From contig NZ_AAMY01000025.1 of NCBI RefSeq assembly GCF_000152905.1, forward strand, positions 1 to 45,905: 45,905 nt of DNA. The letters are read 5' to 3'. The DNA comes from Nitrobacter sp. Nb-311A (lineage in GTDB: Bacteria; Pseudomonadota; Alphaproteobacteria; Rhizobiales; Xanthobacteraceae). This document shows positions 398 through 45,512 of the stretch, one piece after another. The notes beneath the pieces are model-generated. The model searched no databases. It worked only from the letters and a program-made list of their open reading frames with translations, and was not told the DNA's origin. The translations under genes and the position numbers were made by a program. Positions within the stretch are counted from its first letter, which is position 1; each line of letters begins with the position of its first letter.

Positions 398-750
398 TCG
401 GTCCGACCGGCGCAGTTCGGGTTATGATGGCGACCAAGCCGGTCGACTTCCGGAAGGGTGCCGAGGGTCTCGCGGCTCTGGTGCGAGACGGGATGAAGAC
501 CGATCCGTTCTCCGGTGCTGTCTACGTGTTCCGCGCCAAGCGGGCGGACCGTGTGAAGCTGATCTTCTGGGATGGCACTGGTGTCTGCCTGTTTGCCAAG
601 CGGCTCGAAGATGGCGCATTCCGCTGGCCCAATGTACAGGACGGCGTCATGCATTTGACTGCGGCGCAGCTCTCGGCGTTATTGGAAGGTCTCGACTGGC
701 GCCGTGTCCACGTCGCGCGCGAGACGACGGTGCCGACGCAGGCCAGTTGA
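394..750 (+). CDS. tnpB: IS66 TnpB (Orf2)
   Basis: Second IS66 accessory protein, 118 aa, the usual family length. It carries the family signature VMMATKPVDFRKGAEGLAAL near the N-terminus and the VYVFRAKRADRVKLIFWDGTG block in the middle. The role in transposition is poorly defined in the family, but TnpB is required by most IS66 elements. The start GTG at 394 overlaps the tnpA stop. 70 bp separate its stop from the likely tnpC ATG. Confidence 0.93.
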   Translation: MIGPTGAVRVMMATKPVDFRKGAEGLAALVRDGMKTDPFSGAVYVFRAKRADRVKLIFWDGTGVCLFAKRLEDGAFRWPNVQDGVMHLTAAQLSALLEGLDWRRVHVARETTVPTQAS

Positions 751-820
751 TCTGCGACACAGTGAATCATCTTCATCGGATCGCTCGCGACGCATTGAGG
801 CTCGTGATTTAATTGCTTCC

Positions 821-2353
821 ATGACGGCTCTGGCAGACGCGCTTCCCGATGATCCCGGTACGCTGAAGGCGATGCTGCTGGCGGAACGGGCACGCGCCGA
901 ACGGTTGGAACAAATCATCAGGGAGTTGCGCCGCCATCGCTTTGGCCGGCGCGCCGAGACGCTGCCGGAAGATCAACTTCTGCTCGGGCTCGAAGAGGTC
1001 GAGCAGGCTGCTGCGAGCAGCGAGGCGGCAGGTGAAGCGGTCGCTCCGGCCGAGCGAGCACGTCATGCCGTCAGGCACCGCATGAACCGCGGATCGCTTC
1101 CGGCACATCTGCCGCGCATCGAGATGGTGGCCGATATCGAGGACCACAGCTGTCCATGCTGTCGTAACGCGCTGCATCGGATTGGCGAAGACCGGAGCGA
1201 GAGACTCGACATGATCCCCGCGCAGCTGCGCGTGCTCGTCGTGCGCCGGCCGAAGTATGCCTGTCGGGCCTGCGAAGAGGTGGTGGTGCAGGCTCCGGCG
1301 CCGGCACGGCTGATCGAGGGCGGATTGCCGACCGAAGCGACAGTGGCGCAGGTCCTCGTCTCCAAATACGCCGATCACTTGCCGCTCTACCGCCAATCCC
1401 AGATCTACGCCCGGCAGGGCATCATACTCGACCGCTCGACATTGGCCGACTGGGTCGGCCGCGCCGCCTGGTTGCTGCGGCCGGTGCATGAGCGCCTGCT
1501 CGCTACTTTGAAGACCTCGACCAAGCTGTTCGCCGACGAGACCACGGCGCCGGTGCTCGATCCCGGCCGCGGGCGGACCAAGATCGGCCAGCTCTGGGCC
1601 TACGCACGCGATGATCGCCCTTGGGGCGGGGCCGATCCGCCGGGCGTAGCTTACCTCTATGCGCCCGACCGCAAGGCGGAGCGGCCGATCGCTCATCTCG
1701 CCGGCTTCACCGGCATCCTGCAGGTAGACGGCTATGCCGGCTATCGCGCCCTCGCCGAACGCGGCGACGTGCGGCTCGCGTTCTGCTGGGCCCACGTGCG
1801 CCGGCGCTTCTACGAGCTTGCCGTCGCCGGTCCGGCGCCGATCGCCAGCGAGGCGCTCAAACGCATTGTCGATCTCTATGCCGTCGAGACCCAATGCCGG
1901 GGCCGCTGCGCCGATGAGCGGCGCGCGCTTCGGCAGGAGAAGAGCCGCCCCATTCTGGAAGCCCTCGAACCCTGGCTGCGTGCCAAGCTCGACCTGATCA
2001 GCCAGAAGACCAAACTCGCCGAGGCGATCCGCTACGCGCTGTCGCGCTGGGAGGGGCTCACGCGATACCTCAATGACGGCCGCATCGAGATCGATAGCAA
2101 CATCGTCGAACGCTCAATCCGACCGATTGCGCTCAACCGCAAAAACGCGTTGTTCGCCGGCTCCGACGGCGGCGGCGAGCACTGGGCCGTCATCGCCTCG
2201 CTGATCGAGACCTGCAAGCTTTGCAGCATCGAACCGCATAACTATCTGGCCGACGTCATCACCAGGATCGTCAACGGCCATCCCAACAGCCAGATCAACG
2301 ACCTGCTGCCTTGGGCCTATACCGCTGCGCTGGATACCAGGGAAGTGGCCTGA
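821..2353 (+). CDS. tnpC: IS66 TnpC transposase
   Basis: DDE transposase of the IS66 family, 510 aa from the ATG at 821 (MTALADALPDD). An upstream in-frame start at 704 would add 39 low-complexity, Arg/Ser-rich residues overlapping tnpB, and I judge it spurious. Order of parts: N-terminal coiled-coil (about 20-75), IS66 zinc-binding region with CPCC near 111 and CRAC near 148, then the catalytic core with LFADET (D about 239), QVDGYAGY (D about 303) and the E of SNIVERSIRP (about 430). The C-terminal region follows LNRKNALFAGSDGG. The ORF is intact and the product is identical in the three copies, so transposition activity is plausible. Confidence 0.95.
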   Translation: MTALADALPDDPGTLKAMLLAERARAERLEQIIRELRRHRFGRRAETLPEDQLLLGLEEVEQAAASSEAAGEAVAPAERARHAVRHRMNRGSLPAHLPRIEMVADIEDHSCPCCRNALHRIGEDRSERLDMIPAQLRVLVVRRPKYACRACEEVVVQAPAPARLIEGGLPTEATVAQVLVSKYADHLPLYRQSQIYARQGIILDRSTLADWVGRAAWLLRPVHERLLATLKTSTKLFADETTAPVLDPGRGRTKIGQLWAYARDDRPWGGADPPGVAYLYAPDRKAERPIAHLAGFTGILQVDGYAGYRALAERGDVRLAFCWAHVRRRFYELAVAGPAPIASEALKRIVDLYAVETQCRGRCADERRALRQEKSRPILEALEPWLRAKLDLISQKTKLAEAIRYALSRWEGLTRYLNDGRIEIDSNIVERSIRPIALNRKNALFAGSDGGGEHWAVIASLIETCKLCSIEPHNYLADVITRIVNGHPNSQINDLLPWAYTAALDTREVA

Positions 2354-15070: not shown

Positions 15071-15361
15071 TCAGGCAATTTCTCGGGCTGTTTGAGTTTG
15101 TCGTGCGAACTCGTTCGGCGTCAAGTTGCCGAGCGAGGTGTGGGGCCGATCATTGTTGTAGTGGCACCTCCATTCCTCGATCCGTTCGATAGCGTCGGCC
15201 ATCGACAGGAACCATGAGGCATTCAGGCACTCCGCCCGGACGCGACCGTTGAAGGCCTCGCAAAACGCATTGTCCGTTGGCTTTCCGGGTCTCGAGAAGT
15301 CGATCTCGACGCCATTGTGATAGGCCCACTGGTCGAGCATCTTGCCGGCGAACTCGGGGCC
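15071..15361 (-). pseudogene. IS3-family OrfB, C-terminal half
   Basis: C-terminal part of the integrase-core transposase, beginning at [17 protein letters not shown] and running through [20 protein letters not shown] (catalytic Glu region) to [19 protein letters not shown] and the stop. The first codons of the present ORF (to 15397) come from the inserted IS110 end. It is the complement of the N-terminal half at 19521-20072. The element is inactive unless the IS110 element excises. Confidence 0.92.
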
Positions 15362-15394
15362 ATAGCACCTACGGAAGGAATGCGGAGAGGCCAC

Positions 15395-15402
15395 CAAGGA
15401 GC
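15395..15402. repeat. 8-bp target duplication of IS66-B, left copy
   Basis: CAAGGAGC directly precedes the IS66-B end at 15403 and is repeated at 17892-17899. Eight base pairs is the standard IS66 duplication length. Confidence 0.95.
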
Positions 15403-15415
15403 GTAAGCGGTGTTT

Positions 15416-16948
15416 TCAGGCCACTTCCCTGGTATCCAGCGCAGCGGTATAGGCCCAAGGCAGCAGGTCGTTGATCTGGCTGTTGGGATGGCCGTTGACG
15501 ATCCTGGTGATGACGTCGGCCAGATAGTTATGCGGTTCGATGCTGCAAAGCTTGCAGGTCTCGATCAGCGAGGCGATGACGGCCCAGTGCTCGCCGCCGC
15601 CGTCGGAGCCGGCGAACAACGCGTTTTTGCGGTTGAGCGCAATCGGTCGGATTGAGCGTTCGACGATGTTGCTATCGATCTCGATGCGGCCGTCATTGAG
15701 GTATCGCGTGAGCCCCTCCCAGCGCGACAGCGCGTAGCGGATCGCCTCGGCGAGTTTGGTCTTCTGGCTGATCAGGTCGAGCTTGGCACGCAGCCAGGGT
15801 TCGAGGGCTTCCAGAATGGGGCGGCTCTTCTCCTGCCGAAGCGCGCGCCGCTCATCGGCGCAGCGGCCCCGGCATTGGGTCTCGACGGCATAGAGATCGA
15901 CAATGCGTTTGAGCGCCTCGCTGGCGATCGGCGCCGGACCGGCGACGGCAAGCTCGTAGAAGCGCCGGCGCACGTGGGCCCAGCAGAACGCGAGCCGCAC
16001 GTCGCCGCGTTCGGCGAGGGCGCGATAGCCGGCATAGCCGTCTACCTGCAGGATGCCGGTGAAGCCGGCGAGATGAGCGATCGGCCGCTCCGCCTTGCGG
16101 TCGGGCGCATAGAGGTAAGCTACGCCCGGCGGATCGGCCCCGCCCCAAGGGCGATCATCGCGTGCGTAGGCCCAGAGCTGGCCGATCTTGGTCCGCCCGC
16201 GGCCGGGATCGAGCACCGGCGCCGTGGTCTCGTCGGCGAACAGCTTGGTCGAGGTCTTCAAAGTAGCGAGCAGGCGCTCATGCACCGGCCGCAGCAACCA
16301 GGCGGCGCGGCCGACCCAGTCGGCCAATGTCGAGCGGTCGAGTATGATGCCCTGCCGGGCGTAGATCTGGGATTGGCGGTAGAGCGGCAAGTGATCGGCG
16401 TATTTGGAGACGAGGACCTGCGCCACTGTCGCTTCGGTCGGCAATCCGCCCTCGATCAGCCGTGCCGGCGCCGGAGCCTGCACCACCACCTCTTCGCAGG
16501 CCCGACAGGCATACTTCGGCCGGCGCACGACGAGCACGCGCAGCTGCGCGGGGATCATGTCGAGTCTCTCGCTCCGGTCTTCGCCAATCCGATGCAGCGC
16601 GTTACGACAGCATGGACAGCTGTGGTCCTCGATATCGGCCACCATCTCGATGCGCGGCAGATGTGCCGGAAGCGATCCGCGGTTCATGCGGTGCCTGACG
16701 GCATGACGTGCTCGCTCGGCCGGAGCGACCGCTTCACCTGCCGCCTCGCTGCTCGCAGCAGCCTGCTCGACCTCTTCGAGCCCGAGCAGAAGTTGATCTT
16801 CCGGCAGCGTCTCGGCGCGCCGGCCAAAGCGATGGCGGCGCAACTCCCTGATGATTTGTTCCAACCGTTCGGCGCGTGCCCGTTCCGCCAGCAGCATCGC
16901 CTTCAGCGTACCGGGATCATCGGGAAGCGCGTCTGCCAGAGCCGTCAT
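15416..16948 (-). CDS. tnpC: IS66 TnpC transposase (copy B)
   Basis: Identical in translation to the copy A TnpC: 510 aa from the ATG at 16948, with CPCC and CRAC zinc motifs and the DDE core (LFADET, QVDGYAGY, SNIVERSIRP). It is intact. The 361-aa ORF on the opposite strand (15875-16960) is a shadow of this gene. Confidence 0.95.
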   Translation of the reverse strand: MTALADALPDDPGTLKAMLLAERARAERLEQIIRELRRHRFGRRAETLPEDQLLLGLEEVEQAAASSEAAGEAVAPAERARHAVRHRMNRGSLPAHLPRIEMVADIEDHSCPCCRNALHRIGEDRSERLDMIPAQLRVLVVRRPKYACRACEEVVVQAPAPARLIEGGLPTEATVAQVLVSKYADHLPLYRQSQIYARQGIILDRSTLADWVGRAAWLLRPVHERLLATLKTSTKLFADETTAPVLDPGRGRTKIGQLWAYARDDRPWGGADPPGVAYLYAPDRKAERPIAHLAGFTGILQVDGYAGYRALAERGDVRLAFCWAHVRRRFYELAVAGPAPIASEALKRIVDLYAVETQCRGRCADERRALRQEKSRPILEALEPWLRAKLDLISQKTKLAEAIRYALSRWEGLTRYLNDGRIEIDSNIVERSIRPIALNRKNALFAGSDGGGEHWAVIASLIETCKLCSIEPHNYLADVITRIVNGHPNSQINDLLPWAYTAALDTREVA

Positions 16949-17018
16949 GGAAGCAATTAAATCACGAGCCTCAATGCGTCGCGAGCGATCCGATGAAGAT
17001 GATTCACTGTGTCGCAGA

Positions 17019-17375
17019 TCAACTGGCCTGCGTCGGCACCGTCGTCTCGCGCGCGACGTGGACACGGCGCCAGTCGAGACCTTCCAATAACGCCGAGAGC
17101 TGCGCCGCAGTCAAATGCATGACGCCGTCCTGTACATTGGGCCAGCGGAATGCGCCATCTTCGAGCCGCTTGGCAAACAGGCAGACACCAGTGCCATCCC
17201 AGAAGATCAGCTTCACACGGTCCGCCCGCTTGGCGCGGAACACGTAGACAGCACCGGAGAACGGATCGGTCTTCATCCCGTCTCGCACCAGAGCCGCGAG
17301 ACCCTCGGCACCCTTCCGGAAGTCGACCGGCTTGGTCGCCATCATAACCCGAACTGCGCCGGTCGGACCGATCAC
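17019..17375 (-). CDS. tnpB: IS66 TnpB (copy B)
   Basis: 118 aa, identical to copy A, with the KPVDFRKGAEGL and VKLIFWDGTG motifs. The GTG start overlaps the tnpA stop. Confidence 0.93.
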   Translation of the reverse strand: MIGPTGAVRVMMATKPVDFRKGAEGLAALVRDGMKTDPFSGAVYVFRAKRADRVKLIFWDGTGVCLFAKRLEDGAFRWPNVQDGVMHLTAAQLSALLEGLDWRRVHVARETTVPTQAS

Positions 17376-17812
17376 GCGCTGGCCTTTAGCGCGCGGATCA
17401 CCGCCGTGACCGTCCTGGCGTCGGCACCGCGGCCGACGCGCACCGTCACGCTGCCAATCTCAACCTCGATGATTCCAGCAACACGATCCTCATCGAGCGC
17501 ACGGTTGCGACCGCGGCGGCGAACCGCGCGCTCCGGCAATGTAGCTTCCACGAGCGCCGGAACAAAAAGCGGCCCTGACGTCTCGGTGCTCGCCGATGCA
17601 GGCTGCCGTGCTTGACGGCGCCAGCCGAACAACTGTTGCGGCGATAACCCATGACGGCGCGCAATCTCCGAAACTACAGCGCCCGGAACAAGTGTCTCTT
17701 CGATGATGCGGGCCTTGTCATCATCCGAGAACCGGCGCCGACGCCCAGTGCCCGTGATCACCTCAAGCCGGTGCAAATCCTGCGGCTTAAGCGTATGGTC
17801 AAGCGTAGACAC
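17372..17812 (-). CDS. tnpA: IS66 TnpA (copy B), complete
   Basis: Complete 146-aa TnpA, starting with GTG at 17812 (MSTLDHTLKPQDLHRLE) behind the ribosome site AAGGGGAG. The helix-turn-helix region is RRFSDDDKARI...ARRHGLSPQQLFGWRRQ. This copy shows what is missing from the start of copies A and C at the window edges and from the remnant at 11177. Confidence 0.93.
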   Translation of the reverse strand: MSTLDHTLKPQDLHRLEVITGTGRRRRFSDDDKARIIEETLVPGAVVSEIARRHGLSPQQLFGWRRQARQPASASTETSGPLFVPALVEATLPERAVRRRGRNRALDEDRVAGIIEVEIGSVTVRVGRGADARTVTAVIRALKASA

Positions 17813-17891
17813 AAGCCGATCTCCCCTTCAGAGATCTTCACCATCGCTGATCAGCAACGTCAGAAAAAGGTGGGGCCACCACAGCGCTTAC

Positions 17892-17899
17892 CAAGGAGC
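17892..17899. repeat. 8-bp target duplication of IS66-B, right copy
   Basis: CAAGGAGC follows the IS66-B end at 17891 and matches 15395-15402. Confidence 0.95.
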
Positions 17900-18006
17900 G
17901 GTGCGCGCAGCCTTTCATTGCAAGCGCGCGCCGGTCGAGGTGGCCATGGCCAGTCAAGGTTTCTCTAGAATGTGAATGTTCACAACCCATTCCGGAGAGA
18001 CCGACC

Positions 18007-19269
18007 ATGACCAGTACAAATGCTATACTCGCCGATGCGGTGTTGGTAGCCATTGATATTGCCAAGGCTTGCAACGAAGTCCTGATCGAGGCCCCTAGCC
18101 ATAAACGTCGGCGCCGGCTGTCGGTCCTCAACAGCCGTGCGGAGCATGATCGGCTGATCGAAATGCTGCAGGCGTATGGCCGACCTGTGGTCTGCGCTTT
18201 TGAGGCGACTGGGAACTATCACCGGCCGATAGCATGGCGGCTGGCTGAAGCGGGTTTTGAGGTGCAGCTGGTGTCGTCGCTGGCGCTCGCCCGGACCCGG
18301 GAGGCCTTGCACAACAGCTGGGACAAGAACGATCCTAAGGATGCGCAGGTGATCCTGCACATGCTGAGGATCCGGGCGACGCAGGTCTACCATGATCCGC
18401 TGCGCGTCGGCATCAACGACGTGCAGGAACTGTCGAAGACGCATGAAGCGATCGCCAGGGCCAAGACCGAGATCCAGCACCGCATCCTGACGCATTACCT
18501 GCCGCTGTATTTTCCCGAGATCGAACGCTTCCGGGGCAACAGCCGCAGCGATTGGTTCTTCGCCTTCCTCGATGCCTTTCCGACGCCGGCAAACATCACG
18601 GCGCTGACAAAGGAGGAGTTCGTCAAAGCAGCCTGGGATGTCGTCGGCCGCAAGGTCAGCAAGACGCAGATTCTCATGGATATTTACCAGACGGCGCGTA
18701 CATCGATTGGACTGCCGTTGCCGCTCGACGCTCCTGCCATCCGCATGTTCCGGATGGTCATTGCCGAAGCACGCAGCCTGATCCGGCAACGCAATGCGAT
18801 CGAAGCCCAGGCCGACGAACTGCTTCGGCACAGCCAGGATTATCAGCTCCTGCGGCAAATCCCCGGCATCGGGCCGATCAATGCACTGACGGTCATTGCC
18901 GAAGCCGGAGATCTTCGCCGCTTCCACCACCATCGCCAGTTTCTCAAGTTCTGCGGACTGGATCTGTCGACCCAGCGGTCCGGCCAATATCGCGGCCAGA
19001 CCCGGCTTTCGAAGTTTGGCAATGCCAGGCTGCGCCGCACCCTATGGATTGCCGGGCAGGTTGCCATCCGCCAGCGTGAGAACGGCTTCCGGCACAAGTT
19101 CGAACGCTACATCGCTAGAGATCGCGACAATCCCGATCTGCGCCGCAAGGCGATGACCGCTATTACCGCCAAGATGGCGCGCGTCGTGCACGCCGTTGTC
19201 AAAAGCGGTTCCGATTACCGGCCCTTCGTCGAGGGGCGGGTGCCAGGTGGAAGAACCTCTGTCAGCTAG
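18007..19269 (+). CDS. IS110-family (IS1111-like) transposase, intact
   Basis: A 420-aa recombinase of the DEDD type. The N-terminal RuvC-like domain starts with VLVAIDIAKACNEVLIE (first Asp), continues with AFEATGNYHRPIAWRL, and has KNDPKDAQVILHML as the paired acidic motif. The C-terminal Transposase_20 domain has LRQIPGIGPINALTVIAEAG and GLDLSTQRSGQYRGQTRLSK, which includes the conserved Ser. The family inserts without target duplication and is now known to be guided by a bridge RNA made from a non-coding end of the element. The ORF is intact. IS66-B lies about 115 bp upstream and may cut its promoter. Confidence 0.95.
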   Translation: MTSTNAILADAVLVAIDIAKACNEVLIEAPSHKRRRRLSVLNSRAEHDRLIEMLQAYGRPVVCAFEATGNYHRPIAWRLAEAGFEVQLVSSLALARTREALHNSWDKNDPKDAQVILHMLRIRATQVYHDPLRVGINDVQELSKTHEAIARAKTEIQHRILTHYLPLYFPEIERFRGNSRSDWFFAFLDAFPTPANITALTKEEFVKAAWDVVGRKVSKTQILMDIYQTARTSIGLPLPLDAPAIRMFRMVIAEARSLIRQRNAIEAQADELLRHSQDYQLLRQIPGIGPINALTVIAEAGDLRRFHHHRQFLKFCGLDLSTQRSGQYRGQTRLSKFGNARLRRTLWIAGQVAIRQRENGFRHKFERYIARDRDNPDLRRKAMTAITAKMARVVHAVVKSGSDYRPFVEGRVPGGRTSVS

Positions 19270-19520
19270 GGCCGTGAGGGCATCTGTTCGATGACCCTGT
19301 AGATAATGTTCGGGTCTTCCGCCTGGATCAGAAGCTCGTGTTGAGGACGGTGAGGGCCGCCTTCGTGCGGACCCTGTGTTTGCTATGGACGAGACCTTTT
19401 CCTTTGCCGGCGGAAGCCGCCTGGTTCGACCTTGCGACTTGACCAGCGTCACGCAGCGAGAGCATGCTGGCGAACGGAGAGACTTTGATCGGCTGCTCCA
19501 CTTCCTTCCGCTCTTAGGAC
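19270..19520 (+). ncRNA. putative bridge RNA region in right end of IS110-type element
   Basis: This is the 251-bp non-coding tail between the transposase stop and the element end. In IS1111-type elements the bridge RNA is encoded on this side (established for the family). GC-rich inverted stretches are visible, such as GTGAGGGCCGCC...GCGGACC around 19349-19373. Within it, CGCAGCGA (19452-19459) matches the right target flank and GGCGAAC (19469-19475) the left target flank. The RNA itself is not shown by sequence alone. Confidence 0.4.
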
Positions 19521-20072
19521 GTTGTCGCAGCGAATGGTCTTTGGCTTGCCGCGCTCCCTTGCCAGCCGCTCAAGAACCTCGACGACCTGGAAGGCTCTGA
19601 AGTTCGTTCTCGGAACGATCGCAAGTGATTCTCGGGTGTGGCAATCGACAACGGTCAAAAGCCGGAACGGGCGGCCGTTGAACAACGCATCCGACATGAA
19701 GTCCATCGCCCAGCAGTGGTTCACGGCGGCGATCTTTGGCCGATCGGAACGATAGCGCCAGGCCCGTTTGCGCTTCGGCGTTTTTGTCCTGATCGACAGG
19801 CCTTCTTCGCGATACAGCCGGTAAGTGCGTTTGTGGTTCAAGCGATAGCCCTCGCGCAGCAGCAGGACGTGGAGACGCCGATAGCCGTAGCGCACCCGGC
19901 TGGCCGCCAGATCCTTCAGCCGAATGCGCAGCTCGGTTTGCGGATCACCGCGCGACTTGTAGCGTTGTGAAGAGCGATGAAAGCCGGTCGCTTTGCAGGC
20001 CCGTCGTTCGCCAATATCGTAGACCTTCTGCAGATGGAATACGACCTCACGTCGGACGGCGGGCCTCACCAT
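19521..20072 (-). pseudogene. IS3-family OrfB, N-terminal half
   Basis: N-terminal part of OrfB from MVRPAVRREVVFHLQ to ERGKPKTIRCDN. It includes the HTH_21-like region, CWAMDFMSDALF (first catalytic Asp) and VVDCHTRESLAIVPRTN, and stops exactly at the Asp-Asn of the second catalytic motif, where the IS110 end begins. The last 24 codons of the present ORF are read from IS110. The remainder of the gene is at 15071-15361. Confidence 0.93.
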
Positions 20073-20332
20073 TTTTTTCGTAGGACGTCCTGCAACATCG
20101 CCTTGTCCAGCGTCAGATCCGCCACCACACGCTTCAGCTTCGCGTTCTCGTCCTCAAGCTGCTTCAGCCGCCGGATCTCGCTCACACCCATGCCGGCATA
20201 GACTTTCTTCCATCGATAAAATGTCGGCTCCGAGACCCCCATCTTCCGGCAGATCTCCTCAATCGTCGTCCCGCTCTCTGCCTGCCTCAACGCAAAGGCA
20301 ATCTGTTCCTCCGAAAACCGCTTCCGTTTCAT
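20066..20332 (-). CDS. IS3-family OrfA (HTH_Tnp_1)
   Basis: An 88-aa OrfA with the helix-turn-helix RFSEEQIAFALRQAES...CRKMGVSEPTFYRWKKVY and a leucine-zipper stretch (RRLKQLEDENAKLKRVVADL). It ends in an A7 run (RKKW, stop), the usual -1 frameshift site leading into OrfB, which starts at 20072. OrfA is intact, but its partner OrfB is split. Confidence 0.92.
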   Translation of the reverse strand: MKRKRFSEEQIAFALRQAESGTTIEEICRKMGVSEPTFYRWKKVYAGMGVSEIRRLKQLEDENAKLKRVVADLTLDKAMLQDVLRKKW

Positions 20333-20404
20333 GGCATCCGCCCTCCGTGGGGTTCAGAATGCCCGAAAAAATTGCCTTCAACATGGACCAGCTTCGTGGG
20401 TCAG

Positions 20405-21136
20405 GATCAATCAGTTCGCTGTTCTCAAACCGCTTCTGCCTAATGATCCGCGCGGCAAGCCGCGGGTCGATGATCGGCGCGTCATCAGCGGCATTATCCA
20501 GGTTCTGAAGTCCGGTGGGCGCTGGATCGATGCGCCGGAGGTCTATGGTCCGCGCAAAACACTCTACAATCGCTTCGTCCGCTGGGCAGCGAAGGGCGTA
20601 TGGGTAGACATATTCCACGCACTCGCAACGGCCGGTGGACCTCCTGCGCAGGTCCTGATCGATAGCTCGGCCGTGAAGGCGCATCGATGCGCATCTGGCG
20701 GCAAAGGGGGGAACATCAGCAGGCCATCGGCCGATCGCGCGGCGGGCGGACCACGAAGATCCATGCTCTAACCGACGCGGAGTGTCGTCCCGTCGCGTTC
20801 TTGCTGACCGGGGGTCAGATAGCCGATTGCACCGCTGGAGCGGTTCTGCTCGAACAGATGCCACGTTCCGCGATCCTGCACGGCGACAAGGGTTACGACA
20901 GCGATGCCATCCGCCGACAGGTCGAGGGAAAGGGTGCGATGCCGAACATCCCGCCCAAGGCGAACCGACATTGGAAGAATTGCTTTTCGCCCGTCCTCTA
21001 TCGAAGCCGCAACGCCATCGAGCGTATGTTCTGTCGCCTGAAGGACTTTCGCCGCATCGCAACCAGATATGATCGTCTCGCAATCAATTTCCTCGCAGCC
21101 GTCTGCATCGCTGCGGTGGTCAGTTACTGGTTATGA
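20405..21136 (+). pseudogene. IS5-family transposase (IS427 group), two-frame, 5'-truncated
   Basis: The first frame begins without its own start at INQFAVLKPLLPNDPRGKPR and runs through VLIDSSAVKAHR (first Asp). The second frame (from about 20687) carries RGGRTTKIHALTDAEC, ILHGDKGYDSDAIR (second Asp) and YRSRNAIERMFCRLKDFRR (Glu). The frames are joined at an A3G6 run (20703-20711), the programmed -1 frameshift site known in this group, so the frame change itself is normal. The missing start is the damage: translation could only begin in upstream foreign sequence. Confidence 0.85.
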
Positions 21137-21147
21137 GTCCGGACCCT
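20405..21147 (+). mobile_element. IS5-family element (IS427 group), left end missing
   Basis: The right terminal repeat is visible (AGTCCGGACCCT ending at 21147), and the 3' 76 bp recur as a relic at 26747-26822. The left repeat and the transposase start codon have been lost where the IS3 nest ends (20404). Two overlapping ORFs (orfA, orfB) are typical of the IS427 group. Confidence 0.85.
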
Positions 21148-21469
21148 AGCGGAGGTGAGTTGTACTGAGCTTTTCTTCGTCGAAATAGTCCGTCCGCGAT
21201 TGAAGGCCGGGCTGATGAAGCGCAAACGGATCGGATTTTTACAATTCTGCGCGAGCCTGAGGTCGGTACCGATCTGCCGGCATGGTGGGGCATTGACGAC
21301 GTTAAGCGCTGAGGTCTATTGAAGACGAGATTAGGAAGTTGAAGAATCTGCTAGCCAACCACAACTTTGAAGAATTTGCGCTTCTAGAGCATATTCCGAC
21401 CGGAATGAATCGTTGGGGATTACCAATGGTCTGCCCCTATGAGGTGCTCCGTTTTCAGTCTTAATGCAT
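21148..21469. other. unassigned segment
   Basis: About 320 bp between the IS5 end and an IS66 relic. I see no convincing gene or recognised IS end. It is likely eroded mobile-element debris. Confidence 0.35.
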
Positions 21470-21738
21470 GATGGGCTTTTCGGCCATGCACCGGCCGCAG
21501 CAGGAAGGCGGCACGTCCGATCCAATCGGCCAAGGTCGAGCGATCCGGATCAATATCCTGGCGTGCGTAGATCTGGGCTTGTCAATACAGCCGCAGATGA
21601 TCGGCGTATTTGGCGACGAGCACCTGCGCCACAGTGGCCTCGGTCGGCAGCCCACCCTCGACCAGCCGCGCCGGCGCCGGTGCCTGCACCATGGTCTCGC
21701 AGGCTCAGCAGGCATACTTCGGTCGGCGCACGACCAGG
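21470..21738 (-). pseudogene. divergent IS66 TnpC fragment
   Basis: Minus-strand fragment of an IS66 transposase, different from copies A-C. It aligns with their segment from about RRPKYACRACE through VQAPAPARLVEGG, VAQVLVAKYADHL and ARQDIDPDRSTLADWIGRAA to LRPVH. A stop and small lesions break it. It shows an older IS66 insertion unrelated to the recent expansion. Confidence 0.82.
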
Positions 21739-21802
21739 GGTCTGACTCACATCTGATGAGTTTTCTGCCGAGCTTGCGGTTCTCCAACGGGGGATCAGCG
21801 CC

Positions 21803-23259
21803 ATGCGAGCCGGTATTCGAATTTCGTCGCTTGTGCCGAGTGGGTTGGTTATCGAGAGCGTAAGTGATTCATCTGACTCGATTATTTTAGCCGTCCGATC
21901 CGACGGCGGCATGGCCGAGTGCCCATTGTGCGGGGCGAGATCGCGCCGAATCCATAGTCGATACGATAGACAAGTCGCGGATTTGCCATGTGCAGGCAAG
22001 CAAATACGCCTCCGCGTGATCACGCGGCGGTTCATTTGCGAGATACGTCATTGTCGGCGGCGGATTTTCGCAGAACGGTTCGGGGACGATGTTCTCCCGA
22101 CCCGGTCGCGCCGGACGGCACGGCTGGAATGCATCGTCCACCATCTGGGGCTGGCACTCGGCGGCAGGCCGGCAGCGAGATTTGCCAAGCGACTGATGCT
22201 GCCGGTGAGCAACGATACTCTGCTGCGGGTTGTTAGGCGACGAACGCGCCCAAGAACGGAGCCTCTGATCGTCGCTGGTATTGACGACTGGGCTTTTCGC
22301 AAGAACCATCGCTACGGAACAATTGTGTGCGATCTGGAGAGGCGGCGGATCGTAACTCTGCTTCCCGATCGCGAGATTGCAACGGTGCGGGCTTGGCTTT
22401 CCGACCATCCGGAGATCATGGTCGTATCGCGCGACCGTGGCGGCGGCTACGGTGAGGCCGCGGCAAAGGCGCTGCCCGACGCCGTCCAGGTCGCCGACCG
22501 TTGGCACCTGATGGAGAACAAGCGCGGCGTTCCTCAACGCGGTACGCCGTTCCATGCGGCCGCACCGCAATCGGTGCGACGACGATCAATCCAAAACTGC
22601 TCACTTGCGCGGAAAGGCTGCAGTATGAAGGGTATCTCCGACGCAAGCAGACGAATGCCGCCATCATGGCGCTCGTCGGAGACGCAGTGCCACTCAAGGA
22701 GATCGTCCGTCGAACAGGACACAGCCGTAAACTCGTTCGCCAAGTCAGTCGCGGCGAGAGTACGGATGTCTTCCGGACACGGCAAAGCACGCTCGATGCC
22801 CACTTGCTTTTTCTGGATGCGCAATGGAGCGGGGGCTGCCGTAACGGCGCAGAGCTCTGGCATCGTTTACAAGGGCAAGGCTTCCAAGGCTCCTTGCGTG
22901 TCGTCAGTGAGTGGACGACACGGCGACGACGGGCCGAGAAGGCGACCAATCAACAACTGCAAAAAGTGCCATCCGCGAGAACAATCTCACGATTGATGAC
23001 CACGGCGCGCGACAATCTCAGCAAAGCAGATACGGTCACCATCGCCGCCATCGAGGCGCGCATTCCCACACTCGTCGAAGCCCGCATGCTCGTCGAAAGC
23101 TTCCAGACCATGGTGCGCAAGAAGCTTGTCGCTGATCTCGATCCTTGGATCGCCACCGCCAGCTTGAGCCTGATCGGTTCCTTTGCGAGTGGCATCATTA
23201 GGGACAAGGCCGCCGTCCGTGCCGCCATGCAGCAAAAGGCTGCGCGCACCGCTGCTCAG
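21803..23259 (+). pseudogene. ISL3-family transposase, frameshifted and 3'-truncated
   Basis: N-terminal zinc-ribbon region ECPLCGARSRRIHSRYDRQV, followed by the ISL3 pattern DLPCAGKQIRLRVITRRFIC. The core has VAGIDDWAFRKNHRYGTIVC (first Asp) and VVSRDRGGGYGEAAAKALPD (second Asp), then ADRWHLMEN. Single-base changes near 22515 and 22565 shift the frame; the remaining part (LLTCAERLQYEGYLRRKQTN onward) continues to 23259. The C-terminus with the catalytic Glu is missing because an IS110/IS3 junction follows. The left flank (21739-21802) may hold the ISL3 end. Confidence 0.88.
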
Positions 23260-23291
23260 TGACCTCTCCTCAGTCCTTCCGTAGGTGCTAC
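23260..23291 (-). mobile_element. IS110 left-end remnant, related to the nest 1 IS110
   Basis: Read on the minus strand, this 32-bp stretch is GTAGCACCTACGGAAGGACT followed by GAGGAGAGGTCA. It matches the left end of the nest 1 IS110 (15362 onward) with a few differences, including the CGGAAGGA subterminal repeat. It abuts the Gly codon of an IS3 OrfB catalytic motif, exactly as in nest 1. The rest of the element has been deleted. Confidence 0.8.
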
Positions 23292-23639
23292 GGCACCGAG
23301 CTGACCTCGATGGCAGTCCTGCGATGGTGCCAACACACCGGCGTCGAATGGCACTACATCGCGCCGGGAAAGCCTACCCAGAACGCCTTCGTAGATAGCT
23401 TCAACGGGCGCTTCGGGACGAATGCCTCAATGACACGCTCTACTCGACGCTGTCCGAGGCGCGCAGCACCATCAGTTCATGGAGGGAGGATTACAACCAA
23501 CACCGACCACATTCGGCACTCGGCAACATCACACCCGCCGAGTTCGCAACGAAATCCACGCTGGAAAAACAGGCCGCACAAGGCCAAAACGAAAACCAGG
23601 ACTCTCCCTCAAGCTGGAGGAGACTAGGGTCTCGGGTCA
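23292..23639 (+). pseudogene. IS3-family OrfB C-terminal fragment and right end
   Basis: The fragment begins at [12 protein letters not shown] (second catalytic region) and continues with [20 protein letters not shown] and FVDSFNGR. A one-base loss at about 23414 then shifts the frame. It ends with the IS3 terminus AGGGTCTCGGGTCA at 23639. It is the same IS3 type as the elements at 28219 and 38992. A third, 80-bp piece of this end lies at 26666. Confidence 0.9.
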
Positions 23640-23845
23640 AAGCCACCGTCAAACGCTATCACTACGACAGCCACGACCAACTGCGACGCCATCTCGCTAA
23701 TTTCGTCGACGCTTACAATTTCGGTCGAAGGCTGAAAACCCTCAAAGGCCTCACGCCTTACGAGTTCATCTGCAAATGCTGGACAAGCGAACCCAAGCGA
23801 TTCAAACTAAACCCGTTTCAGAAAATGCCGGGACCAAACACCTAG
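23640..23845 (+). pseudogene. IS481-family transposase C-terminal fragment
   Basis: The last about 68 codons of an IS481-type integrase-core transposase: KRYHYDSHDQLRRHLANF, VDAYNFGRRLKTLKGLTPYE, FICKCWTSEPKRF and the closing MPGPNT. It lacks the DDE motifs. The stop TAG lies in a CCTAGG palindrome, whose other strand supplies the stop of the convergent methyltransferase gene. Confidence 0.82.
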
Positions 23846-27842: not shown

Positions 27843-28000
27843 CACGCTATTTTTGAAACCGTCTATGATATCCGGACGCATATATTGAATGGTAGATGGA
27901 GACCAGTGCACGATAGCACACTCGTTGGAGCAGTTGGGTGTGGATGTATGCAGCAGCGGCGGTGGTCGATAATGGCTTGAGCTCCAAGGATCATCTAGCT

Positions 28001-28218
28001 GCACGCCGTCGTCAAAAGCGGTTCCGATTACCGGCCCTTCGTCGAGGGGCGGGTGCCAGGTGGAAGAACCTCTGTCAGCTAGGGCCGTGAGGGCATCGGT
28101 TCGATGACCCAGTAGATAATGTTCGGGTCTTCCGCCTGGATCAGAAGCTCGTGTTGAGGACGGTGAGGGCCGCCTTCGTGCGGACCCTTGTTTGCTATGG
28201 ACGAGGCCTTTTTCCTTT
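28001..28218 (+). mobile_element. relic of the nest 1 IS110 type (3' end of gene plus tail)
   Basis: 218 bp nearly identical to 19189-19405: the last codons of the IS110 transposase (VVKSGSDYRPFVEGRVPGGR) and about 145 bp of the non-coding tail. It stops where an IS3 end (TGACCCGAGACCC) begins at 28219. The far end of the IS110 element is missing. Confidence 0.9.
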
Positions 28219-28221
28219 TGA

Positions 28222-29115
28222 CCCGAGACCCTAGTCTCCTCCAGCTTGAGGGAGAGTCCTGGTTTTCGTTTTGGCCTTGTGCGGCCTGTTTTTCCAGCGT
28301 GGATTTCGTTGCGAACTCGGCGGGTGTGATGTTGCCGAGTGCCGAATGTTGTCGGTGTTGGTTGTAATCCTCCCTCCATGAACTGATGGTGCTGCGCGCC
28401 TCGGACAGCGTCGAGTAGAGCGTGTCATTGAGGCATTCGTCCCGAAAGCGCCCGTTGAAGCTATCTACGAAGGCGTTCTGGGTAGGCTTTCCCGGCGCGA
28501 TGTAGTGCCATTCGACGCCGGTGTGTTGGCACCATCGCAGGACTGCCATCGAGGTCAGCTCGGTGCCGTTGTCGAGACGATCGTGGCGGGCCGGCCGCGC
28601 CAGCGGATGATGGCGTCCGGTTCACGCACGACGCGCAGGCCGGAAAGCGATGTATCGGCGATCAGTGCCAGGCACTCCCGCGTATAGTCGTCGACCACGG
28701 CGAGCACCCGGAAGCGCCGACCGTCGGTGAAGGTGTCGGAGACGAAGTCCAGGCTCCACCTTGCGTCGGCACGATCGGGCATGAGCATCGGCCTGCGTGT
28801 GCCCAAGGCCCGCTTGCGGCCGCCGCGCCGGCGCACCTGCAGCTTCTCCTCCCGGTAGAGGCGCCGCAGCTTCTTCTGGTTCATCACGATACCCTGCCGC
28901 TCCAGCATGATGTGGATCCTGCTGTAGCCGAACCGCCGGCGCTCCGCCGCCACGGCCTTCATCGCATCGCGCAACGGACCGTCGTCCGGACGGATGCTGG
29001 TGTAGCGCACCGTTGAACGGTCGATGCTTAGAGCCTGGCACGCCCGACGCTGGCTCACCCCATGCACCTCGCAGGCGCAAGCCACCGCTTTCCGCTTCGC
29101 ATCGGGCGTCACCAT
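28222..29115 (-). pseudogene. IS3-family OrfB, frameshifted at the second catalytic Asp
   Basis: It begins MVTPDAKRKAVACACEVHG, with CQALSIDRSTVRYTS and RRFGYSRIHIMLERQG in the HTH_21-like region, then ARWSLDFVSDTF (first Asp) and VVDDYTRECLALI. In the stretch that should read IVSDNGTELTS one base is missing (about 28570), exactly at the second catalytic Asp. The frame is regained only for a separate ORF ([16 protein letters not shown]... [14 protein letters not shown]). The same lesion is present in the copy at 38992, so the damage preceded the duplication. IS110 insertion also removed its link to OrfA. Confidence 0.92.
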
Positions 29116-38994: not shown

Positions 38995-39888
38995 CCCGAG
39001 ACCCTAGTCTCCTCCAGCTTGAGGGAGAGTCCTGGTTTTCGTTTTGGCCTTGTGCGGCCTGTTTTTCCAGCGTGGATTTCGTTGCGAACTCGGCGGGTGT
39101 GATGTTGCCGAGTGCCGAATGTTGTCGGTGTTGGTTGTAATCCTCCCTCCATGAACTGATGGTGCTGCGCGCCTCGGACAGCGTCGAGTAGAGCGTGTCA
39201 TTGAGGCATTCGTCCCGAAAGCGCCCGTTGAAGCTATCTACGAAGGCGTTCTGGGTAGGCTTTCCCGGCGCGATGTAGTGCCATTCGACGCCGGTGTGTT
39301 GGCACCATCGCAGGACTGCCATCGAGGTCAGCTCGGTGCCGTTGTCGAGACGATCGTGGCGGGCCGGCCGCGCCAGCGGATGATGGCGTCCGGTTCACGC
39401 ACGACGCGCAGGCCGGAAAGCGATGTATCGGCGATCAGTGCCAGGCACTCCCGCGTATAGTCGTCGACCACGGCGAGCACCCGGAAGCGCCGACCGTCGG
39501 TGAAGGTGTCGGAGACGAAGTCCAGGCTCCACCTTGCGTCGGCACGATCGGGCATGAGCATCGGCCTGCGTGTGCCCAAGGCCCGCTTGCGGCCGCCGCG
39601 CCGGCGCACCTGCAGCTTCTCCTCCCGGTAGAGGCGCCGCAGCTTCTTCTGGTTCATCACGATACCCTGCCGCTCCAGCATGATGTGGATCCTGCTGTAG
39701 CCGAACCGCCGGCGCTCCGCCGCCACGGCCTTCATCGCATCGCGCAACGGACCGTCGTCCGGACGGATGCTGGTGTAGCGCACCGTTGAACGGTCGATGC
39801 TTAGAGCCTGGCACGCCCGACGCTGGCTCACCCCATGCACCTCGCAGGCGCAAGCCACCGCTTTCCGCTTCGCATCGGGCGTCACCAT
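38995..39888 (-). pseudogene. IS3-family OrfB, same frameshift as nest 2
   Basis: Identical in translation to the nest 2 copy (28222-29115), including the one-base loss at the second catalytic Asp (about 39343). The shared lesion shows that the two copies come from one damaged parent. Confidence 0.93.
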
Positions 39889-43552: not shown

Positions 43553-45085
43553 TCAGGCCACTTCCCTGGTATCCAGCGCAGCGGTATAGGCCCAAGGCAG
43601 CAGGTCGTTGATCTGGCTGTTGGGATGGCCGTTGACGATCCTGGTGATGACGTCGGCCAGATAGTTATGCGGTTCGATGCTGCAAAGCTTGCAGGTCTCG
43701 ATCAGCGAGGCGATGACGGCCCAGTGCTCGCCGCCGCCGTCGGAGCCGGCGAACAACGCGTTTTTGCGGTTGAGCGCAATCGGTCGGATTGAGCGTTCGA
43801 CGATGTTGCTATCGATCTCGATGCGGCCGTCATTGAGGTATCGCGTGAGCCCCTCCCAGCGCGACAGCGCGTAGCGGATCGCCTCGGCGAGTTTGGTCTT
43901 CTGGCTGATCAGGTCGAGCTTGGCACGCAGCCAGGGTTCGAGGGCTTCCAGAATGGGGCGGCTCTTCTCCTGCCGAAGCGCGCGCCGCTCATCGGCGCAG
44001 CGGCCCCGGCATTGGGTCTCGACGGCATAGAGATCGACAATGCGTTTGAGCGCCTCGCTGGCGATCGGCGCCGGACCGGCGACGGCAAGCTCGTAGAAGC
44101 GCCGGCGCACGTGGGCCCAGCAGAACGCGAGCCGCACGTCGCCGCGTTCGGCGAGGGCGCGATAGCCGGCATAGCCGTCTACCTGCAGGATGCCGGTGAA
44201 GCCGGCGAGATGAGCGATCGGCCGCTCCGCCTTGCGGTCGGGCGCATAGAGGTAAGCTACGCCCGGCGGATCGGCCCCGCCCCAAGGGCGATCATCGCGT
44301 GCGTAGGCCCAGAGCTGGCCGATCTTGGTCCGCCCGCGGCCGGGATCGAGCACCGGCGCCGTGGTCTCGTCGGCGAACAGCTTGGTCGAGGTCTTCAAAG
44401 TAGCGAGCAGGCGCTCATGCACCGGCCGCAGCAACCAGGCGGCGCGGCCGACCCAGTCGGCCAATGTCGAGCGGTCGAGTATGATGCCCTGCCGGGCGTA
44501 GATCTGGGATTGGCGGTAGAGCGGCAAGTGATCGGCGTATTTGGAGACGAGGACCTGCGCCACTGTCGCTTCGGTCGGCAATCCGCCCTCGATCAGCCGT
44601 GCCGGCGCCGGAGCCTGCACCACCACCTCTTCGCAGGCCCGACAGGCATACTTCGGCCGGCGCACGACGAGCACGCGCAGCTGCGCGGGGATCATGTCGA
44701 GTCTCTCGCTCCGGTCTTCGCCAATCCGATGCAGCGCGTTACGACAGCATGGACAGCTGTGGTCCTCGATATCGGCCACCATCTCGATGCGCGGCAGATG
44801 TGCCGGAAGCGATCCGCGGTTCATGCGGTGCCTGACGGCATGACGTGCTCGCTCGGCCGGAGCGACCGCTTCACCTGCCGCCTCGCTGCTCGCAGCAGCC
44901 TGCTCGACCTCTTCGAGCCCGAGCAGAAGTTGATCTTCCGGCAGCGTCTCGGCGCGCCGGCCAAAGCGATGGCGGCGCAACTCCCTGATGATTTGTTCCA
45001 ACCGTTCGGCGCGTGCCCGTTCCGCCAGCAGCATCGCCTTCAGCGTACCGGGATCATCGGGAAGCGCGTCTGCCAGAGCCGTCAT
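43553..45085 (-). CDS. tnpC: IS66 TnpC transposase (copy C)
   Basis: Same 510-aa product as copies A and B (ATG at 45085). The frame and the DDE residues are intact. Confidence 0.95.
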   Translation of the reverse strand: MTALADALPDDPGTLKAMLLAERARAERLEQIIRELRRHRFGRRAETLPEDQLLLGLEEVEQAAASSEAAGEAVAPAERARHAVRHRMNRGSLPAHLPRIEMVADIEDHSCPCCRNALHRIGEDRSERLDMIPAQLRVLVVRRPKYACRACEEVVVQAPAPARLIEGGLPTEATVAQVLVSKYADHLPLYRQSQIYARQGIILDRSTLADWVGRAAWLLRPVHERLLATLKTSTKLFADETTAPVLDPGRGRTKIGQLWAYARDDRPWGGADPPGVAYLYAPDRKAERPIAHLAGFTGILQVDGYAGYRALAERGDVRLAFCWAHVRRRFYELAVAGPAPIASEALKRIVDLYAVETQCRGRCADERRALRQEKSRPILEALEPWLRAKLDLISQKTKLAEAIRYALSRWEGLTRYLNDGRIEIDSNIVERSIRPIALNRKNALFAGSDGGGEHWAVIASLIETCKLCSIEPHNYLADVITRIVNGHPNSQINDLLPWAYTAALDTREVA

Positions 45086-45155
45086 GGAAGCAATTAAATC
45101 ACGAGCCTCAATGCGTCGCGAGCGATCCGATGAAGATGATTCACTGTGTCGCAGA

Positions 45156-45512
45156 TCAACTGGCCTGCGTCGGCACCGTCGTCTCGCGCGCGACGTGGAC
45201 ACGGCGCCAGTCGAGACCTTCCAATAACGCCGAGAGCTGCGCCGCAGTCAAATGCATGACGCCGTCCTGTACATTGGGCCAGCGGAATGCGCCATCTTCG
45301 AGCCGCTTGGCAAACAGGCAGACACCAGTGCCATCCCAGAAGATCAGCTTCACACGGTCCGCCCGCTTGGCGCGGAACACGTAGACAGCACCGGAGAACG
45401 GATCGGTCTTCATCCCGTCTCGCACCAGAGCCGCGAGACCCTCGGCACCCTTCCGGAAGTCGACCGGCTTGGTCGCCATCATAACCCGAACTGCGCCGGT
45501 CGGACCGATCAC
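45156..45512 (-). CDS. tnpB: IS66 TnpB (copy C)
   Basis: 118 aa, the same product as copies A and B. The GTG start overlaps the tnpA stop. Confidence 0.93.
   Translation of the reverse strand: MIGPTGAVRVMMATKPVDFRKGAEGLAALVRDGMKTDPFSGAVYVFRAKRADRVKLIFWDGTGVCLFAKRLEDGAFRWPNVQDGVMHLTAAQLSALLEGLDWRRVHVARETTVPTQAS

Follow-up and report, generated by a model that had tools for sequence, protein, structure and literature searches.

An IS110-family element of Nitrobacter at the catalytic codons of DDE transposases and its predicted 3'-encoded bridge RNA

The insertion sequence (IS) ISEc21, a member of the IS110 family, reportedly targets the codons of the second catalytic aspartate of IS3 transposases and inserts without target duplication (Siddiquee et al. 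2024, PMC11187229). Here we describe an IS110-family element of a separate lineage, located at 15363-19521 in a 45,905-nucleotide contig of Nitrobacter sp. Nb-311A (NZ_AAMY01000025.1; hereafter the window, contig C33 of a 4.1 Mb genome in 44 contigs). In this element and its relatives, a genuine specialisation is shared across the clade: the catalytic codons of other transposases are their target. Judging from sequence comparison, the targeting is most likely RNA-guided. Given the ISEc21 precedent the core idea is not new; what is new is the separate lineage with its 3' RNA, its breadth and its wobble-tolerant guide. No report of this lineage's target was found in the open-licence papers searched, although ISfinder or published target logos could already hold it.

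ISEc21 encodes a protein of 358 amino acids (aa) and carries its noncoding RNA upstream, whereas the window element encodes a recombinase of 420 aa (18007-19269, plus strand; its DEDD_Tnp_IS110 and Transposase_20 domains each exceed the curated cut-off) and carries its RNA downstream. The upstream noncoding RNA, the protein length of 345-385 aa and the close sequence that characterise the ISEc21 group are not found in the window element. Plasmid pCRE3-KPC bears a 358-aa IS110 element named ISEc21 in its paper (PMC7096625), and the BLASTP comparison of this protein gave best E-values of 0.046 against the window protein and 0.022 against that of a relative from Rahnella. By reading, the pCRE3-KPC copy is inserted after ...HSD and its upstream region contains CACAGCGATCG; it lies sense to its victim, whereas the window element lies antisense and has GAYAAU as guide. 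ISEc21 was also found outside IS3, in mrkH (PMC12217459). The order of guides in the window element, with the bottom-strand match GCC on the 5' side and the top-strand match GAYAAU on the 3' side as we assign them, is that of ISEc21 and the opposite of that in IS1111 seekRNAs, where the top-strand match is reported to lie 5' of the bottom-strand match (PMC11187229). It seems that two far-apart IS110 branches, each using a different RNA, have come to target the same catalytic codons.

With the IS1111 group the window element shares a downstream noncoding RNA and a mobile element as target, and perhaps the subterminal inverted repeats. IS1111 transposases, however, measure 330-350 aa against the 420 aa found here. 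Their subterminal inverted repeats are usually 11-13 base pairs (bp) long; those of the window element (by reading, CGGAAGGAA at 15372-15380 and its partner TTCCTTCCG at 19502-19510, both given on the plus strand) match perfectly over 9 bp and, by eye, are shorter in other members. IS4321 and IS5075, of the IS1111 group, reportedly target the terminal repeats of the Tn21 family. Like IS621 and the other IS110 elements with bridge RNAs (Durrant et al. 2024, PMC11208160), the window element is predicted to have an RNA with target- and donor-binding loops, in which the bottom strand is the partner of the left guides and the top strand that of the right guides, with the core as part of the pairing. 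Unlike in that type, the window RNA is encoded at the 3' end, begins inside the recombinase open reading frame (ORF) and has another target. Site- and orientation-specific insertion without duplication, together with a predicted RNA whose loops match target and donor and which is supported by structure and covariation, agrees with the IS110 family.

Outside insertion sequences, group I intron homing endonucleases offer the nearest analogy: their targets include active-site codons, and at wobble positions, where constraint is loose, variation is tolerated (PMC3943268). There, recognition is by protein and the host gene is spared by splicing, whereas recognition by the window element is predicted to be by RNA and the gene is broken.

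Insertion sites in transposase genes

In the window, a minus-strand IS3-type orfB is divided by the IS110-family element, an arrangement referred to here as nest 1. The upstream half of the transposase (19524-20072, minus strand) ends with ...KPKTIRCD, the last residue being the second catalytic Asp, and the downstream half (15074-15361, minus strand) starts with GPEF; both match NCBIfam IS3 over the stretches tested (19524-19883 and 15074-15361). A first, sequence-only reading of this DNA had placed the insertion in the second catalytic motif, which stands, and at the boundary of the Asn and Gly codons, which must be corrected: the true junction is AA|Y-GG, within the Asn codon and one base earlier. 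The final C of CTGCGACAAC is supplied by the end of the element; on the left side the retained top-strand base is A, and the original Asn codon was therefore probably AAT.

Insertion sites were pooled from the best 80 of 331 confirmed loci of the genome collection, 22 hand-picked plasmid records and further genome loci. Repeats of the same DNA (own genome, Afipia) and irrelevant pattern matches, 21 loci altogether, were left out beforehand, and of the resulting 130 copies 23 were removed as duplicates, so that 107 distinct sites remained. Of these, 80 have CC-R-T/T-R-T-C with both its halves, which is antisense to GAY-AAY-GG. Left flanks read CC-R in 98 of 101 cases, the remaining three being two tandem junctions and locus L075 (AAC), and right flanks read TTRTC in 87 of the 93 located, the others being three tandem junctions, L074 (contig end), L066 and L070; the end finders favour the expected reading where a choice exists, which slightly favours these flank counts. 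At the 80 sites, Asn is encoded by AAC 55 times and by AAT 25 times, Asp by GAC 69 times and by GAT 11 times, and Gly by any of its four codons. The logo of 78 sites (the 80 minus L030 and one short flank) has CC-R-T-T-R-T-C as its only fixed positions. Third codon positions outside this 8-bp core vary, and the further conservation, for example of Glu-Phe codons, consequently looks protein-driven.

Some loci depart from the simple pattern. In L066 (right flank TAGCC) and L075 (left flank AAC) the motif is altered on one side only, which may result from later mutation or flank exchange. Head-to-tail junctions of a right end with a left end occur in L039-L043, L106 (contig C23 of the source genome) and L126 (a Sinorhizobium meliloti plasmid), and the half-site retained there may permit repeated insertion; the junctions of L039, L106 and L126 are compatible with a circular intermediate without proving one. 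Loci L001-L004 and L023 are records of Afipia birgiae 34632.

Pfam searches (E 0.01) detected rve_3 in 84 of 97 downstream target halves and rve in 68 of 86 upstream halves. NCBIfam assigned the same 86 upstream halves to IS3 (58), IS481 (46), IS30 (2) and weaker others, families that overlap, and the targets thus extend past IS3 to IS481 and IS30 types. Clustering of the 91 downstream halves with 40 aa or more yielded 33 groups at 70% identity and 16 at 50% which, with 107 distinct sites, supports the sequence-only reading in its proposal of separate insertions at one conserved codon site. The only clearly non-transposase site, L030, matches DctM, a component of the TRAP transporter, on its right side and has the core CCATTGTC; unrelated targets without a shared core, which had been named as the case to set against that proposal, were not encountered in the pool. 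The presence of the same 8-bp core in the DctM insertion indicates that the element recognises DNA sequence rather than gene identity. The halves of L126, L134 and L054 matched no Pfam family at 0.1, L134 having a weak IS481 match in NCBIfam. By eye, the two flanks are apparently of different transposase types in L026 (IS30-like upstream, IS3-like downstream), L051, L009, L048 and L077, and flanks may have been exchanged via recombination between copies.

Within the source genome six left ends and five right ends were located by exact patterns, some being the two ends of one element. Five of the left ends and all five right ends adjoin Asp-Asn-Gly codons of DDE transposases: these left ends border codon series beginning with Gly, and the right ends border upstream halves that all terminate with Asp (VTRVMTD, VPGHVRSD, KPKLLSD, PATIVSD, KTIRCD). 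The sixth left end stands in tandem with an IS110 relative of 70% identity, whose right end it joins. Three further left ends at these codons (two on contig C23, one on C4) belong to a second lineage of the element type, with about 70% identity. The genome contains 555 CCRTTRTC sites and 42 rve_3 matches, and about 8% of the motif sites would be catalytic codons if each rve_3 gene had one; rve genes missed by rve_3 would add a few. With ten of eleven ends at catalytic codons, the eleventh being tandem, against this proportion, the pattern goes beyond chance. At least eight unoccupied copies of one victim transposase were found among the 30 of 42 rve_3 loci examined, and no base was gained or lost between unoccupied and filled site in the one comparison made, for which the filled ends on C15 and C25 were taken as one insertion. 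Other IS110 types of the same genome, with identities of about 21-32%, were represented by ten of the loci L092-L103; target halves were found nearby in five of the ten, which may just reflect dense IS clusters and provides no usable outgroup. A longer form of the target, CTGCGACAACGG then CCGAG within two bases, had no copy in the source genome and was rejected as too long.

The same codons are struck, on both sides, by members from Rahnella (L144, 46% identity), from another class (L147, 48%) and from the acidobacterium Acidisarcina (L138, 58%), and on the left side by a member from Robbsia (51%), the right end of which is cut off. Most members are alphaproteobacterial. ISRel25 and ISMex12 occur as names in the annotations covered by the analysis. 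Relatives were detected in 3 of 385 genomes of the class (E 1e-80), 7 of 296 of the family (1e-80) and 4 of 398 of the phylum (1e-60), the source genome being counted each time; with so few genomes, the element is patchy. A search for the guide pattern in 299 genomes gave two matches, against one for the reversed control.

The predicted bridge RNA and its guides

The noncoding RNA region lies downstream of the recombinase and was aligned from the last recombinase codons onward. The alignment holds 36 of the 41 listed RNAs, down to about 46% protein identity (L051, L056, L073, L074 and L080 were left out). In the window the predicted bridge RNA spans 19243-19400 on the plus strand, as do all guides given below, with a 5' strand that starts inside the recombinase ORF and an approximate 3' end. 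The predicted fold consists of two similar arms, each comprising a stem, a two-strand internal loop and an apical hairpin. Over the four named helices (35 pairs), 90.0% of cells are paired in the 36 RNAs vs 79.8 +/- 0.5 after shuffling, and two-sided changes affect 26 pairs vs 13.8 shuffled; 0 of 500 shuffles reached the observed values. Sliding of the partners lowers pairing to 31-50%, a control against which the structure is favoured as it was drawn from the window sequence. The outer donor stem is the weakest helix (74.4% paired). Rfam gave no match within 15300-23700 at E 1.

The first, target-binding arm (19243-19326) has an outer stem formed by 19243-19257 with 19312-19326 and an apical hairpin between its two guides. 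Its loop reads GCC-R-U on the 5' side of the hairpin and, in all 36 aligned RNAs, UAGAYAAUG on the 3' side. The left target guide, GGGCC-GU (19269-19275), has the same sense as the top-strand left target and would pair with the gene strand GG..; this 5' segment, GGGCCGU, occupies the position that mirrors the donor loop. Another candidate for the left guide, 3' of the right guide, where UUCGGGUC resembles the left target, was rejected because part of that stretch belongs to the outer helix (3' strand). The right target guide, GAUAAU (19302-19307), can by reading pair with GTTGTC, GTTATC, ATTGTC and ATTATC, i.e. with the antisense of GAY-AAY. The general form GAYAAU can pair with GT-TGTC, core included, the guide U tolerating A in place of either G, and a guide U would stand opposite the third codon position for Asn in 36 of 36 RNAs and for Asp in 29 of 36. 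Locus L056 carries the AGATAATA variant with GAUAAU intact, and the AGATAATA variant sits at GAT.

The second arm of the window RNA has AGGACGG before its hairpin and UUUGCUAU after it, which match the right and left element ends. Its left donor guide GAGGACGG (19343-19350) resembles the right end TTAGGACG, and its right donor guide UUUGCUAU (19379-19386) can pair with the left end (GT)AGCA. Across loci, left ends with TAACAC go with the guide GUUAU in 15 of 15 cases and those with TAGCAC go with GCUAU in 74 of 75 readable cases (10 were unreadable), while the left end TGATAC of the Rahnella member (L144) goes with AUCAU. Among right ends, TAGTCCG (L144, L147) occurs with AAGUCCY and TAGTACG (Acidisarcina, L138) with GAGUACAG. 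Right-end rows such as TAGGGCCG are mis-picked ends and were not used, nor was the window row, which is two bases off, counted for left ends. As the loci are not independent, there were fewer events than the donor-guide counts suggest, and the distant members are more telling. As the donor guides mostly shift with the element ends while the target guide stays constant, we believe that guides and ends pair.

Proposed mechanism and alternatives

We consider it highly probable that the 3' end of this IS110 lineage encodes a bridge RNA by which insertion is guided to CC-R-T-T-R-T-C, the antisense of the catalytic codons of DDE transposases. Direct support comes from the site, the orientation, the codon phase, the lack of duplication (in one comparison), the conserved two-arm RNA and the donor guides that track the element ends. 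In the proposed mechanism, the RNA would be transcribed and would pair with both DNA partners: the left guide GCC-GU and the right guide GAYAAU of the target loop would select the antisense of GAY-AAY-GG, the right-guide U letting either synonymous codon of Asn (36 of 36) or Asp (29 of 36) pair, and the donor-loop guides would match the element's own two ends. A circular form of the element would presumably arise and recombine at the GT (or AT) core, yielding an insertion without duplication, antisense to the victim gene, whose transposase would be broken. The presumed benefit would be a landing site that is dispensable, spreads and changes slowly. Owing to its constraint the motif would be durable as a target, and the wobble-tolerant guide bases fit this idea.

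A wider reading, which we hold tentatively and at somewhat less than even weight, is that this clade, which extends across several proteobacterial classes and into Acidobacteriota, has fixed a guide that amounts to a reader of a protein motif. The guide would be exact at the invariant bases of Asp-Asn-Gly and wobble-capable at the synonymous ones, the victim could not escape without losing catalysis, and the DDE site would be a convergent target of this clade and ISEc21.

Several observations weigh against the proposed mechanism or parts of it. The target guide and the target hardly vary, which leaves their pairing without covariation support, and beyond GCC the left guide showed no significant match to its own targets (permutation p 0.08-0.24 over 2-4 bases). 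At the Asp position, C guides lie at GAC in 10 of 10 cases and U guides at GAC in 64 and at GAT in 12, which fits wobble but is not significant (about 0.2 by hand). The U at the Asn position is also opposite the core, and a U occupies the equivalent place in the donor guide, so that this base may serve the core and not the codon. Among donor guides, L029 has GUUAU with a TAGCAC end, L045, L047 and L048 still have GCUAU with a TAGTAC end, where a G-T wobble is needed, and in L012, L031, L117, L071 and L080 the guide is off the right end by about one base. Exceptions among the sites are L066, L070, L010 and L038 on the right and L075 on the left, the right flanks of L010 and L038, which were not located by the script, failing to fit. 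Finally, eight bases alone leave the scarcity of insertions elsewhere unexplained.

This last point, seen in the 555 motif sites against 42 rve_3 matches, implies that survivorship, longer recognition or both must act. Insertion could be equally easy at any CCRTTRTC, with insertions in transposons mostly surviving as harmless; no longer DNA motif is visible, the third codon positions near the site varying freely, and L030 is an insertion at the same core in a host gene. However, many intergenic or dispensable motif sites should tolerate insertions as well, yet ten of the eleven ends in the source genome are in transposase codons and the other is tandem. We take survivorship as a serious possibility while leaning against it, and it would give the pattern another cause while leaving the RNA-guided mechanism as it is. 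That the recombinase protein reads the DNA of the Asp-Asn-Gly codons itself, the conserved 3' region being merely a cis element, would agree with the joint conservation of recombinase and target across the clade. We judge it very improbable given that the two-arm RNA shows covariation, that donor guides shift with the ends inside one protein family, and that published IS110 and IS1111 members use RNA (PMC11208160 and PMC11187229).

The sites could also derive from one ancestral IS110-in-IS3 unit copied around, with few true insertions. Some flanks do recur between genomes, as the 23 duplicates dropped from 130 copies attest, and some sites join halves of different transposases (L026 and L051, by eye), pointing to recombination between copies. 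Such copying is nonetheless hardly credible as the source of 33 target groups at 70% identity, or 16 at 50%, which include IS481 and IS30 types in the same codon phase. If RNA-guided insertion at these codons is correct, the lineage would represent a natural RNA-guided mobile element specialised in inactivating rival mobile elements at codons fixed by selection, and it would suggest how a guide can keep its value over long evolutionary periods. The lineage may also slow the spread of IS3, IS481 and IS30 in bacterial genomes, and would provide a natural bridge RNA with a short target, wobble tolerance and a code readable from sequence. As no duplication arises on insertion, the victim could in principle be restored if the element were excised exactly, which would make the silencing reversible.

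The second junction and neighbouring elements

A second junction is found at 23291, where a 68-base left-end remnant of a diverged IS110 (23223-23290, minus strand) adjoins C|GGCACCGAG of an IS3 element that differs from that of nest 1. The downstream half of this second transposase (23291-23627, plus strand) starts with GTELTS, and its frame is broken further along. The remnant is identical to the left end of L001 at 62 of 68 positions and to that of nest 1 at 34 of the first 40. It had been proposed that a diverged relative of the IS110 left end stands here at the equivalent codon of a different IS3, and this is confirmed; the remnant is closer to another subtype and hence no piece of nest 1, which argues against an origin of the junction by recombination with nest 1. 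The other half of the target is missing and ISL3-like DNA stands in its place. An ISL3-like transposase at 21803-23262, split over two overlapping frames (21803-22996 and 22501-23262), continues into the left-end remnant. Two other copies of the second IS3 have an unoccupied target CCGTTGTC at 28566-28573 and 39339-39346 (plus strand). Ahead of the site these copies have LARPARHDRLDNG instead of the usual ...IVSDNG, and they look already broken by frameshift.

In nest 1 the IS110 element is itself split by an IS66 element. The IS110 left end (TAGCACCTACGGAAGGAATG..., 15363-15402, plus strand) contains one copy of the 8-bp IS66 target duplication, CAAGGAGC, found at 15395-15402 and 17892-17899 on either side of the IS66 element (15403-17891, minus strand), and the rest of the IS110 element runs from 17900 to its right end ...CTTAGGACG at 19521 (plus strand). 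The window has three ORFs of 549 aa, at 704-2353 (plus strand), 15416-17065 (minus strand) and 43553-45202 (minus strand); the middle one is the IS66 transposase of nest 1 and, by ORF pattern, the other two look like further IS66 copies. A C-terminal and 3' remnant of the same IS110 type lies at about 27981-28230, where it is not a catalytic-codon insertion and is cut by an apparent IS3 element end.

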